A stretch of DNA of 64,000 nt from an uncultured bacterium (GTDB taxonomy: Bacteria; Cyanobacteriota; Vampirovibrionia; Gastranaerophilales; Gastranaerophilaceae): NCBI GenBank assembly GCA_902765215.1, contig CACWZA010000003.1:124001-188000 (forward strand). Reading direction: 5' to 3'. Position numbers and translations under genes: made by a program. Within the stretch, counting starts at the first letter, position 1. The number at the start of each line of letters is the position of its first letter. Positions 2,256-5,845 of this stretch are shown in pieces. The notes beneath the pieces were generated by a model, which was given only the letters and a program-made list of their open reading frames with translations, did not search any database and was not told where the DNA came from.

Positions 2256-2855
2256 ATGAAAAAGATACTATGCTTTGGGGACAGTAACACATACGGATTT
2301 ATTGCAGGCGATGGGGGCAGATATGACAAAAATACCCGCTGGACAGGGCTGTTGCAACAAAAACTTGCACCTGATTACAAAATTATTGAAGCAGGATGCA
2401 ACAACAGAAACGGTTTTATAGAACACCCTGACGGAGATGATCACACAGGATATAAAGCATTGCCGAAATACCTGAAACAAAACCCCGATATAGTAATAAT
2501 TGCAATCGGAATCAATGATATCCAAAAGTTTTACAAACCGACATTAAATACAATATCAGACGGACTGATATCAATGATAAAAACAATAAAAACAGCACAG
2601 ATTATACTTATAGCACCACCTGTTTTGCACGACAATATACTTGATGGCATGTTTGCATTCCAGTTTGACAAAGAATCTATAGAAACTTCAAAGTATCTGC
2701 CGGAACTGTACAAAACAATTGCAAAGGATACGGGCTGCCATTTTTTCGATTTCAACAACGAAATAAAACTTTCAGACAAAGACGGACTGCATTACCCGCC
2801 TGAAAGCCATAAATACATCGCAGACAAGCTTGCGGATTTTATTATGACCCTCTGA
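2256..2855 (+). CDS. SGNH/GDSL-family hydrolase
   Basis: Serine esterase or lipase-like hydrolase of 199 residues. Block I is GDSNTYG at residues 8-14 with the catalytic Ser, block III is GINDI (GxND), and block V is DGLHYPPESH with the catalytic Asp and His. There is no signal peptide, so it is probably cytoplasmic. The substrate cannot be told; relatives deacylate thioesters, arylesters or acetylated sugars. Its 3' end overlaps the convergent membrane-protein gene by 14 nt. Confidence 0.85.
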   Translation: MKKILCFGDSNTYGFIAGDGGRYDKNTRWTGLLQQKLAPDYKIIEAGCNNRNGFIEHPDGDDHTGYKALPKYLKQNPDIVIIAIGINDIQKFYKPTLNTISDGLISMIKTIKTAQIILIAPPVLHDNILDGMFAFQFDKESIETSKYLPELYKTIAKDTGCHFFDFNNEIKLSDKDGLHYPPESHKYIADKLADFIMTL

Positions 2856-4479
2856 AATTATGTTTAAATTTATTTAATGATGTAAATTTATCGTCAGATT
2901 TTTTATTAAAAATGTCATACATCTTATAATCTTTCAATGATGAAGGCATATCTTGCTGATGATTGTTTCGTTGTTTTCTGTTAGTAATAAAAATGTTCAG
3001 TTTAGGGAGTAATACCCCTAATGCGACGGTAGAATAAGCCAATCCCGTAATATGTGCCGCATTTAACTTCCACATATTCTTCTTTGCAAAATCAGCACCC
3101 TTTGATGCGATTTCGTTGTGAGATTTTAAAGACAAATCATTAAGCCAGTGGCGAAGACCTTTCCCTTCCTTATGTTCATTAAAAAGATTTTCTCGTTTTC
3201 TGTCTAAGATATTTGCCATACCTTTTGCGGCAAACCCTCCAAAAACAAGCCAATTTAGGAACCCAAGATAATCACGGGTTGCGGTTTCTCTCAATTCATC
3301 CTGACTGTCTGATGCCATAAAACGACCGATTAAAGTTGATGCGTAAACTGTTTTTATTGCATTACCGCTTGTTACAGGCCCCGTAAATTCGAGCTTTTTA
3401 ATAAAATCTTTTGGCGATTTAACCTTCATAACCCCTAAGGCCATCAAAGCCATGCCTGCACTCATCATAAGCTTTTCAGCAAACAGCCATTTGCTGTTAT
3501 CCTTATTTGAGGCTTTGTTTTTAACATTATCACTATAATTTGTGTCCCCGACAAACCCTTTTGTTCCCGTGCGTTTTTCGGTAATTTTTCTGTTTATATA
3601 CTGGTTTGTGAGTCCGAGTCCTGAAGCAAGCGACAGCGCCCCGATTGATTTAACTTTATTAATCGTATTTATTTTCTCAATTGCTTCAGATACATTCTGA
3701 TTATCCGCCCGGAAGACATCTTTACCCATATCCACAGTATCCCTTAAAAGGTTCGGAATATTTGAGGATAACCTTTTACCGTTAACGCTGACTTCAACGT
3801 TGCCTGCGCCAAGCGCATTAACAATGCGTGAAGATACGATATTGAGAAGATTTTTTCTGTCTTTGCTTGTAACAGATTTATCCTCAATAAGCTCTGAAAC
3901 AACATTTGAAATGCTTTCGGCAGATTTTAGTCTTTTATGTATTCCGTTATATTTCCTGTTATCCCATGAAATTTTATTCCAACGGTTTTCATCAACCCAT
4001 TTAACAGTACCCCAGTTAATATTTCCGTAACTGTTAACAGTCTTTCCGTCACGACCGGAAACCCCGTCAAGGACATTCGAAACGAATTTTTTTGAATTAT
4101 TTTCTGAGTTTTCCCACGCACTCTTTAAAAGTTCAACCCCGTCTTTTGTAAACCACGAATTTGGGTTGAGTTTTATATGCGGTTTATAAATTTTATTAGC
4201 AATTTTTGAAATTCCTTTTGCAAAAAGACTTGCCGAAAGGCAGACAATAAGCGTTCCCGTAAATTCTCTGAAAAATGTCTCCGCCCCTGCATATTTATTT
4301 CGCTCCTTAGTATCAACATAAGTTCTCGGCCCAACCATTGCAAACAAATCAATCCCGACTGCGTTAGCCATAGGGTTTGTATCCAAAGTTCTCAAAGTTG
4401 TCGTAACCAGTCCGTCTAAGGCCCCTTTAAATTTTACATTATTCCTGTTGTTATCATTATTTATTTTCTGAATTCTCAT
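2842..4479 (-). CDS. FKG-motif multi-pass membrane protein of unknown function
   Basis: Unrecognised protein of 545 residues. It begins with an Asn-rich polar segment ending in VKFKG (about residues 14-18) rather than a signal peptide. Hydrophobic segments appear near residues 75-95 (TGTLIVCLSASLFAKG), 290-305, 340-355, 415-435 and 475-500 (ITGLAYSTVALGVLLPKL), separated by long polar stretches, and the tail is basic. I start at the ATG at 4479 because TGGAG lies about 6 nt upstream; a TTG 12 nt further up overlaps that site. An intrinsic terminator and a Cys-rich small ORF sit directly upstream, so expression may be attenuated. It shares the short N-terminal motif with the genes at 43091 and 43819. 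Confidence 0.75.
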   Translation of the reverse strand: MRIQKINNDNNRNNVKFKGALDGLVTTTLRTLDTNPMANAVGIDLFAMVGPRTYVDTKERNKYAGAETFFREFTGTLIVCLSASLFAKGISKIANKIYKPHIKLNPNSWFTKDGVELLKSAWENSENNSKKFVSNVLDGVSGRDGKTVNSYGNINWGTVKWVDENRWNKISWDNRKYNGIHKRLKSAESISNVVSELIEDKSVTSKDRKNLLNIVSSRIVNALGAGNVEVSVNGKRLSSNIPNLLRDTVDMGKDVFRADNQNVSEAIEKINTINKVKSIGALSLASGLGLTNQYINRKITEKRTGTKGFVGDTNYSDNVKNKASNKDNSKWLFAEKLMMSAGMALMALGVMKVKSPKDFIKKLEFTGPVTSGNAIKTVYASTLIGRFMASDSQDELRETATRDYLGFLNWLVFGGFAAKGMANILDRKRENLFNEHKEGKGLRHWLNDLSLKSHNEIASKGADFAKKNMWKLNAAHITGLAYSTVALGVLLPKLNIFITNRKQRNNHQQDMPSSLKDYKMYDIFNKKSDDKFTSLNKFKHNFRGS

Positions 4480-4496
4480 AATTTTCTCCAATACAA

Positions 4497-4528
4497 AAAG
4501 TTCCTCACAAAAATATGTAAGGAACTTT
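4497..4528 (-). terminator. attenuator-type terminator upstream of the FKG membrane protein
   Basis: On the - strand, AAAGTTCCT (from 4528-4520) pairs with AGGAACTTT (4505-4497) and is followed by five T residues. It stands between the small Cys-rich ORF and the ATG at 4479, where a terminator would block the downstream gene. Its 5' arm can instead pair with AGGAACTT inside the small ORF (4576-4569), giving an antiterminator. Confidence 0.65.
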
Positions 4529-4540
4529 AATAAATCTCAT

Positions 4541-4565
4541 ACTACAAAATCCGCACTACAAAATC
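4541..4565. repeat. 11-bp direct repeat in the attenuator leader
   Basis: ACTACAAAATC occurs at 4541-4551 and again at 4555-4565, separated by 3 bp. It lies between the two hairpins and could be an operator or RNA-binding site; the second copy overlaps the stop codon of the small ORF. Confidence 0.4.
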
Positions 4566-4632
4566 AGTAAGTTCCTCCTTTGAACTTACAGCAACAGCAA
4601 GATGTTAAATTAGCGTTGATTTTGTTAGTCAT
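4564..4632 (-). CDS. 22-residue Cys-rich small ORF with FKG motif (possible leader peptide)
   Basis: ATG at 4632, TGA at 4566-4564. The peptide has four consecutive cysteines followed by KFKGG and ends three residues later. A weak AAGAGA site lies about 6 nt upstream. The codons for the residues after the cysteines form the first arm of a perfect 8-bp hairpin (GTAAGTTC/GAACTTAC, 4589-4567), so a ribosome held at the cysteine codons would cover that arm. This is the geometry of an amino-acid attenuator. Alternatively it is a small Cys-rich protein in its own right, since it shares the FKG motif with the downstream protein. Too short for coding statistics. Confidence 0.45.
   Translation of the reverse strand: MTNKINANLTSCCCCKFKGGTY
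4567..4589 (-). promoter_or_regulatory. 1:2 hairpin overlapping the Cys-rich ORF
   Basis: Perfect 8-bp stem GTAAGTTC/GAACTTAC with a 7-nt loop, inside the 3' half of the small ORF. The second arm overlaps the sequence able to pair with the terminator arm at 4520-4527, so the two folds exclude each other. Confidence 0.5.
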
Positions 4633-4753
4633 TTTAAATCTCTTATTTAGTGTCCTTATTTATAAAACATCTAAAAAAATTTTTTGTCAATAAACCGAAT
4701 GTTTAGTATGAAGAAATGTTTATGTTATTCTATATATGAAACGAGGGATAAAT

Positions 4754-5845
4754 ATGAAAATATTGGTAGGTTTATCAGGCGGTGTTGACTCATCGGTTAC
4801 CGCACTATTATTAAAAGAACAAGGTCATGAAGTTATTGGTGCGACAATGTCTATATGGAGAGAACGCACAGACCTGAACTTAAGTGTTATGAAAGAAAAA
4901 AGCACCTGTACTCACGGGGCTTGTTACGGGCCTGATGAAAAAGAGGATATAGAAGCAGCCCGCAAAATTGCAGAACAGATAGGGATACCTTATCATGTTT
5001 TCAAATGTGCTGACGAATACGAACAAATAGTCTTGGATAACTTCAAAGACGAGTATTTGTCGGGCAGAACTCCAAACCCTTGTATCAGATGTAACGCACT
5101 GGTTAAATTCGGAGTGCTTCCGTTTCTGGCAAAACAAGAAGGAATCGAGTTCGACAAATTTGCAACAGGCCACTATGCAAGAATAGAGGAACGCGACGGC
5201 AGATATATATTAAAAAGAGCAAAGAATTCAAAGAAAGACCAGTCTTATTTCTTATATAAACTAAAACAGGAGCAACTCAAAAACATTTATTTACCGCTCG
5301 GTGAATACACAAAAGAAGAAATCAGAGAAATTGCTCGTAAGGGCGGACTTGATGTATCGGATAAACCTGACAGTCAGGACTTTTACGAAGGCGATTATAA
5401 CGAACTGCTGGGCATAGAAGCAAAAAAAGGGAATATTGTAAATACGGAAGGCAAAATTCTCGGAACTCACGACGGCATCTGGAACTATACAATAGGTCAG
5501 AGAAAAGGGATAGGAATCTCTGCACCGGAGCCTTTGTATGTACTTGAATTGAGAAAAGATACAAACGAAGTTGTTGTCGGATATAAAGACAAAACCTTTA
5601 AAAAATCGTTATACGCAATAGATTTAAACTGGATATCAGTAGATAAACTGACAGAACCTATGAAAATAACGGCAAAAATTCGCTCGACTCAGCAGCCAAC
5701 AGAAGCAACCCTTACCCCAATAGATGAGGATAGGGTAAAAGTGGAATTTGATGAGTACCAAAAATCAATCGCTATCGGTCAGTCAGTAGTGTTCTACAAT
5801 GGAGATGATGTCGTTGGAGGCGGAATTATTGATAAAGTAGAATAA
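4754..5845 (+). CDS. mnmA: tRNA-specific 2-thiouridylase MnmA (divergent clade)
   Basis: Adds sulfur to U34 of Lys, Glu and Gln tRNAs using ATP. 363 residues. The PP-loop SGGVDSS lies at residues 8-14, ATGHYARIE and KKDQSYFLY in the middle, and the TIGQRKGIGI and GGGII elements in the C-terminal barrels. The first cysteine site is NPCIRCN, here a CxxC. The second catalytic cysteine, normally in a DSxxICF context, is absent: the segment reads KPDSQDFYEGDY. Extra cysteines occur in CTHGACYGP. This suggests a clade with a different, possibly iron-sulfur, chemistry. I start at 4754, with AGGGAT just upstream, not at 4736. MnmG, which modifies the same base, is at 26099. Confidence 0.85.
   Translation: MKILVGLSGGVDSSVTALLLKEQGHEVIGATMSIWRERTDLNLSVMKEKSTCTHGACYGPDEKEDIEAARKIAEQIGIPYHVFKCADEYEQIVLDNFKDEYLSGRTPNPCIRCNALVKFGVLPFLAKQEGIEFDKFATGHYARIEERDGRYILKRAKNSKKDQSYFLYKLKQEQLKNIYLPLGEYTKEEIREIARKGGLDVSDKPDSQDFYEGDYNELLGIEAKKGNIVNTEGKILGTHDGIWNYTIGQRKGIGISAPEPLYVLELRKDTNEVVVGYKDKTFKKSLYAIDLNWISVDKLTEPMKITAKIRSTQQPTEATLTPIDEDRVKVEFDEYQKSIAIGQSVVFYNGDDVVGGGIIDKVE

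Follow-up and report, generated by a model that had tools for sequence, protein, structure and literature searches.

The window (the whole stretch of DNA that was analyzed, 64,000 nucleotides) carries on its minus strand a gene for a 545-aa protein with an N-terminal FKG motif and a single Cys (2842..4479, ATG at 4479), and a Shine-Dalgarno sequence read as GGAG lies at 4486..4489. Upstream on the same strand is a leader ORF of 22 codons, MTNKINANLTSCCCCKFKGGTY (4564..4632; ATG 4632-4630, TGA 4566-4564), with four regulatory Cys codons, TGC TGT TGC TGT (4588..4599). Arm 1, GTAAGTTC (4582..4589), is a partner of arm 2, AGGAACTTAC (4567..4576), which contains GAACTTAC (4574-4567) and AGGAACTT (4576-4569) and can also pair with arm 3. 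A spacer, TTTTGTAGTGC (4553..4563), separates arm 2 from arm 3, AAAGTTCCTTACA (4516..4528), which was identified by the terminator scan as the 5' terminator arm and covaries with arms 2 and 4. Arm 4, TGTGAGGAACTTT (4497..4509), forms the other side of a 13-bp stem, and the U-tract is T5 (4495..4499); U-tracts are also found 3' of arm 4 in relatives with a detected terminator. An earlier note on this DNA had described these leader elements, and all are present on the minus strand at the positions it gave. Arm 1, which it had placed directly after the Cys codons, begins within the fourth of them.

The leader promoter has a -35 element, TTGACA (4685..4690, minus strand), that is invariant in seven genus orthologs, and a putative -10-like element, TTTATA (4661..4666), read from the sequence after an 18-nt spacer; the genus orthologs have a similar AT-rich hexamer at the same spacing. 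Across the order, 72 of 75 relatives have TTGACA no more than 90 nt 5' of the leader start, against 1.9 expected from shuffling. A strict sigma-70 consensus scan of the window called no promoter at the leader because the second hexamer is poor. The earlier note's proposal depended on transcripts beginning upstream of 4632, and the conserved TTGACA places the start there, as far as sequence can tell. The leader is flanked by a divergent mnmA on the upstream side, and the next gene downstream of the controlled gene is convergent; thus, the 545-aa gene is probably monocistronic, with the leader serving one gene. None of the Rfam 15 covariance models (riboswitch, T-box and leader families) reached its gathering score anywhere in the window.

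The 545-aa protein matched no Pfam or NCBIfam family past the cut-off, and PDB sequence and fold searches returned no relative. Its AlphaFold model is of low confidence (pLDDT 56), and no weight can be given to fold matches. The earlier note had called it an FKG-motif membrane protein; the N-terminal motif is there, but hydropathy is borderline for membrane helices (maxima 1.5-1.6) and lends the membrane part little support. Proteins with an N-terminal FKG-like motif are numerous in these genomes. Paralogs of the controlled protein that have the motif and stand in tandem (L012, G000:C10:58730-61790, and relatives) form a leaderless group, and no leader was found at those examined.

Conservation of the leader and the exchange of Cys for Ser codons

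An ortholog of the 545-aa gene was found in seven of the eight genomes of the genus, the eighth (G002) giving only distant matches. The Cys run has not been lost in these close relatives: all seven orthologs have a short ORF with CCCC 79-96 nt 5' of the gene, with start codon and frame kept in 7/7. The tails after CCCC vary (KFKGGTY, KFIGGTC, NCLK, KNQ, KYFDGNLQS), and relatives' leaders end in CCCCNCLK, CCCCKNQ or CCCCKYFDGNLQS before the stop codon. The earlier note had remarked that the leader peptide shares the FKG motif of the controlled protein. As the KFKGG tail is not conserved, this echo is incidental; the likeness is best read as chance, with KFKGG merely the coding of arms 1 and 2.

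An order-wide search with the protein covered 286 genomes, of which 89 contained homologs; the upstream DNA of 80 homologous genes was taken. These genes were chosen by protein alone. A short leader ORF carrying a Cys run (28 genes, typically C3-C4) or a Ser run (48 genes, S3 to S10) precedes 76 of the 80; in this tally, L171 was reassigned by hand from Ser to Cys, and the assignment of L126 (SSNCS) is weak. Most of these ORFs end 70-110 nt before the gene. Four of the 80 homologs have no intact leader. One of the four, L163 (G277:C33), is a natural leader mutant, with an in-frame stop codon just before the Cys codons, so this copy should be unable to respond. Before other ORFs in the same loci, a leader with C3+ or S4+ was found in only 3 of 227 cases, all at cysteine-synthesis genes. 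The searches made returned members of the 545-aa family from Gastranaerophilales alone.

A phylogeny of 93 proteins of the family groups the Ser-led genes in a single clade (support 97) nested within Cys-led genes, with leaderless outgroups outside, which implies one Cys-to-Ser change. Because some loci in this tree were picked up with the RNA models, its leader frequencies carry a bias from which the 80-gene tally is free. The sister of the Ser clade is the Cys-led gene of G183, whose leader mixes the two residues (CCCCNSSGGCC). One Cys-led and one Ser-led copy occur together in five genomes (G122, G281, G199, G225, G169).

The Ser runs comprise 213 codons: 132 UCC, 71 UCA, 5 UCU, 2 UCG and 3 AGC, so that 98.6% are UCN. 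Ser codons of the downstream genes are 62% UCN and 5% UCC. Judged by this bias, selection acts on the codon, not on the peptide. In published ribosome profiling of B. subtilis under serine starvation, ribosome density rises at UCN Ser codons and Cys codons but not at AGC/AGU (PMC3862929). As serine starvation slows both kinds of codon together, the UCN run and the Cys run may report one condition. No report of a poly-Ser attenuator or of a Cys/Ser exchange was found in the open-access literature.

The composition of the controlled protein follows the leader. Cys content is 0.11% in Cys-led proteins versus 1.15% in neighbouring ORFs, and 23 of the 26 proteins in the larger Cys clade have no Cys. 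Ser content is about 4.36% (4.3-4.4%) in Ser-led proteins versus 7.1-7.6% in the Cys-led clades and 7.24% in the leaderless paralogs. In the two-copy genomes, the Ser-led copy is Ser-poor in 5/5 and the Cys-led copy is lower in Cys in 5/5, with the two nearly tied in G122. Rank tests on composition give p ~1e-15 on related rows, so the composition change counts as one event with long maintenance; the Cys-to-Ser change and the composition shift are, on this reading of the sequences, a single evolutionary event. In amino-acid pathways, those of Ser and Cys among them, sparing use of the cognate residue has been documented (PMC4209129). The depletion of the product in the sensed residue suggests that the cell has to synthesise it when that amino acid is lacking.

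Helices of the leader RNA and their geometry

A blind terminator scan of this region of the window found exactly two hairpins, of 8 bp (1:2) and 13 bp (3:4), where shuffles give 0.1. On folding, the region has a z-score of -2.9, and 0 of 200 shuffles were equally good. The pairing of arm 2 with arm 3, which the earlier note had put at 8 bp, was computed as 8-9 bp while arm 4 is still unmade.

Compensatory changes, which the earlier note had named as a check, are present in all three helices. The comparison used 31 Cys leaders and 32 Ser leaders; in both sets, every helix contains pairs in which both partners have changed, 80.6-99.6% of cells are paired, and these values drop sharply once the partners are slid by one column. 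Helix 1:2 is paired in 94.6% of cells in the Cys leaders, with compensatory changes at 4 of 6 pairs, and in 80.6% in the Ser leaders, the weakest of all helices. The corresponding values are 95.6% (Cys) and 89.1% (Ser) for helix 2:3, and 94.6% (Cys) and 99.6% (Ser) for helix 3:4. The mean energy of the 2:3 duplex is -11.5 kcal/mol within species versus -8.2 with arms swapped between species, and 67 of 79 duplexes are better than shuffled sequence at 5%. An intrinsic terminator was detected in 79 of 83 leaders, a few of these calls being doubtful, with the gene start misplaced. L005 (G004:C79) has CCCC and a 1:2-like hairpin, no detected U-tract terminator and a weak covariance-model score; the switch in G004 may have decayed or been rearranged.

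The median gap from the last regulatory codon to the start of the 2:3 duplex is 11 nt in Cys leaders and 10 nt in Ser leaders, which would be about the edge of a ribosome stalled on that codon. When masking to 4577 was computed, as by a ribosome on the last Cys codon, 2:3 stayed intact, and masking by a ribosome at the stop codon abolished it. Thus, both Cys and Ser leaders have the spacing of a trp/his-type attenuator, in which arm 1 can be masked without arm 2. In equilibrium folding, 3:4 beats 2:3 in every masking state; therefore, a switch of this kind must act kinetically, and the decision would presumably follow the accepted trp model. Just 3' of the 1:2 hairpin, a TTTTG..TG segment (4553-4563, minus strand) is conserved at the same place in relatives, in Cys and Ser leaders alike. 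The spacing of this segment would be suitable for a possible RNA polymerase pause stabilised by the hairpin, of the kind known from trp/his leaders.

Occurrence of the leader before cysteine-synthesis genes

The order was scanned with two covariance models, one built on the Cys leaders (R1) and one on the Ser leaders (R2). Strong matches precede the 545-aa gene family, at one or two sites in a genome; the three exceptions are in G104, G192 and G231, where a CCCC leader with the same switch stands before cysteine-synthesis genes. In G104 and G192, the leader is followed by mccB (cystathionine gamma-synthase/lyase family) and a cysteine-synthase-like mccA; in G231, a methyltransferase-like gene comes between the leader and mccB, mccA. 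At E 1e-90, mccB is present in 4 of 192 genomes of the order, G104 and G192 among them (G231 is outside this sample), and the two mccB cases in other families (G022, G024) have no such leader. The presence of this order-specific Cys leader before a reverse trans-sulfuration operon is the best independent evidence that the leader reads cysteine. The earlier note had found it odd that the target was not cysteine biosynthesis. This holds for the 545-aa gene, which is no known Cys gene, but the same element heads mccBA in three relatives. A target that makes, imports or charges the sensed amino acid is represented by mccBA in three genomes, and the 545-aa family is without a recognised domain.

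In the window's genome, mccB is absent at E 1e-90. Loss of cysteine synthesis in the genus was considered as an explanation of the leader, but cysE is present in all 8 genus genomes, so a simple cysteine auxotrophy was ruled out. A search for a Cys-leader regulon across the window's genome found none, giving a single strong covariance-model match, and other TGY-run pattern matches were not leader-like where inspected. Thirteen Ser-model matches weaker than ~1e-5 were inspected, and all were ordinary terminators.

Several neighbouring genes recur. A gene for a GDSL-type hydrolase (window 2256-2855, plus strand; L268:6908-7603) adjoins the Cys-led gene in several genus members and directly follows mccBA in G104 and G192; it was not seen beside Ser-led genes. 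It seems that mccBA and the 545-aa family occupy a common position in the genome. The divergent neighbour mnmA (window 4736-5845, plus strand) recurs beside Cys-led, not Ser-led, genes in the flanks examined; MnmA acts in tRNA 2-thiolation with cysteine-derived sulfur. A gene for a DtxR-like metal regulator with a Cys-rich C-terminus is often found directly 5' of Cys-led genes and of the mccBA leader (for example L268:4084-4647, and upstream of the leader in L246, L250 and L297).

A proposed starvation switch and its alternatives

The earlier note had likened the leader to trp and his attenuators, and this likeness is borne out by the Cys run in 7/7 orthologs, the covariation of all helices, the TTGACA 5' of the leader and the cys operons in three relatives. 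We hold with high confidence that the element is a ribosome-mediated transcription attenuator responding to charged tRNA-Cys, and the Cys-codon run before the 545-aa gene is very probably a starvation switch. The observed basis is the anatomy, conservation, covariation, geometry, codon choice, co-occurrence with mccBA and depletion of the product. From these we infer that ribosomes stall, in which direction expression responds, and that the product helps the cell to cope when Cys or Ser is scarce.

In the proposed mechanism, transcription would start near 4654. With ample Cys-tRNA, the ribosome would pass the four Cys codons to the stop codon and cover arm 2, leaving arm 3 to pair with arm 4, and transcription would end at 4495. 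With Cys-tRNA short, the ribosome would halt on the Cys codons and cover arm 1; arm 2 would then have captured arm 3 by the time arm 4 is synthesised, letting RNA polymerase continue into the 545-aa gene. In the derived clade, with UCN serine codons in place of the Cys codons and the RNA logic unchanged, uncharged tRNA-Ser would stall the ribosome.

It is most unlikely that the CCCC peptide itself, through nascent-peptide arrest or metal sensing, sets the position of the ribosome in place of tRNA charging. Cys clusters do bind metals, and in G104 mccBA, like some of the Cys-led genes, has the DtxR-like gene with its Cys-rich tail 5' of it; however, Ser replaces Cys in 48 of the 80 homologs with the same RNA logic, the UCN/UCC bias of the Ser runs would be invisible to a peptide mechanism, the remainder of the leader peptide is unconserved, and the element precedes mccBA. 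An RNA role for the UCC-rich Ser run, such as an anti-Shine-Dalgarno UCCUCC pairing with the gene's Shine-Dalgarno sequence, would account for the UCCUCC-like sequence in many Ser leaders and for the use of an otherwise rare codon. Nevertheless, Cys leaders lack UCCUCC at the same place, UCA codons are freely mixed into the runs, which stay in the reading frame with varying third positions, and Ser leaders keep the 2:3/3:4 switch just as Cys leaders do, so we give this reading very little probability in place of starvation codons.

The single-amino-acid runs, exclusively Cys or Ser and kept across the order, also bear on whether the element is a constitutive or generic terminator with a translated leader that senses overall translation (coupling, antibiotics) without amino-acid specificity. 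Attenuators of that sort exist, for example the ermC type, and a uORF sensing ribosome-targeting antibiotics has been reported (PMC12121999). Considering these runs, the association with Cys biosynthesis and the depletion of the sensed amino acid in the matching product, we regard this alternative as extremely improbable.

By every feature that could be tested from sequence, the element would be classed as a trp/his-type attenuator. Such attenuators are known from Proteobacteria, Actinobacteria and some Firmicutes (PMC2965389, PMC1262725), and the leader shares with them an ORF with a regulatory-codon run, overlapping 1:2, 2:3 and 3:4 helices and an intrinsic terminator, then a Shine-Dalgarno sequence and the gene. 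It differs in sensing Cys (Ser in one clade), in its usual target, an uncharacterised protein and not an enzyme, and in its host, Gastranaerophilales. Polycysteine leader ORFs are known before mycobacterial cys operons and cys/cbs genes of other Actinobacteria (PMC1262725; Canestrari 2020, cited in PMC13236596). These too are short ORFs with a Cys-codon run before cysteine-metabolism genes, but their run sits close to the stop codon, they yielded no conserved intrinsic terminator, and the mechanism suggested for them involves Rho or translation coupling (PMC1262725). Unlike the mycobacterial leaders, the Gastranaerophilales leader has a covarying antiterminator and a covarying intrinsic terminator, and it is not of the terminator-free kind. 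The uORFC-8-2 motif before cysS in Rhodobacterales, for which Cys-tRNA attenuation was proposed (PMC8632094), likewise combines a uORF with tandem Cys codons, stems and a terminal U-run; it differs in having two Cys codons, another sequence and lineage, and cysteinyl-tRNA synthetase as target. The SinR sensor of Bacillus subtilis (PMC3862929) also uses UCN serine codons as starvation sensors, but does so within a structural gene that has neither a leader nor an RNA switch, whereas the UCN runs here sit in an attenuator. No earlier report of leader-peptide attenuation in Gastranaerophilales was found in the open-access literature, and as far as those papers show, this is the first leader-peptide attenuator described in the order.

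On a broader reading, the 545-aa family would represent a novel type of starvation protein: it would have no enzymatic role, would be produced solely once Cys (Ser in the derived clade) is exhausted, would itself lack that residue, and would stand in for cysteine-synthesis operons under control of the same switch. The Cys and UCN-Ser runs would be interchangeable sensors of serine-pool collapse, and the two-copy genomes would read both. We offer this tentatively, as an idea that is somewhat more apt to fail than to hold. The locus is a rare natural experiment, in which one attenuator would have switched the amino acid it senses while retaining its RNA logic. It also makes testable a notion derived from SinR of B. 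subtilis, namely that a lack of serine is signalled alike by UCN-Ser and Cys codons. The composition of the product, tracking the sensed amino acid, would give a handle, from sequence data, on when an uncharacterised gene of uncultured gut bacteria is expressed.
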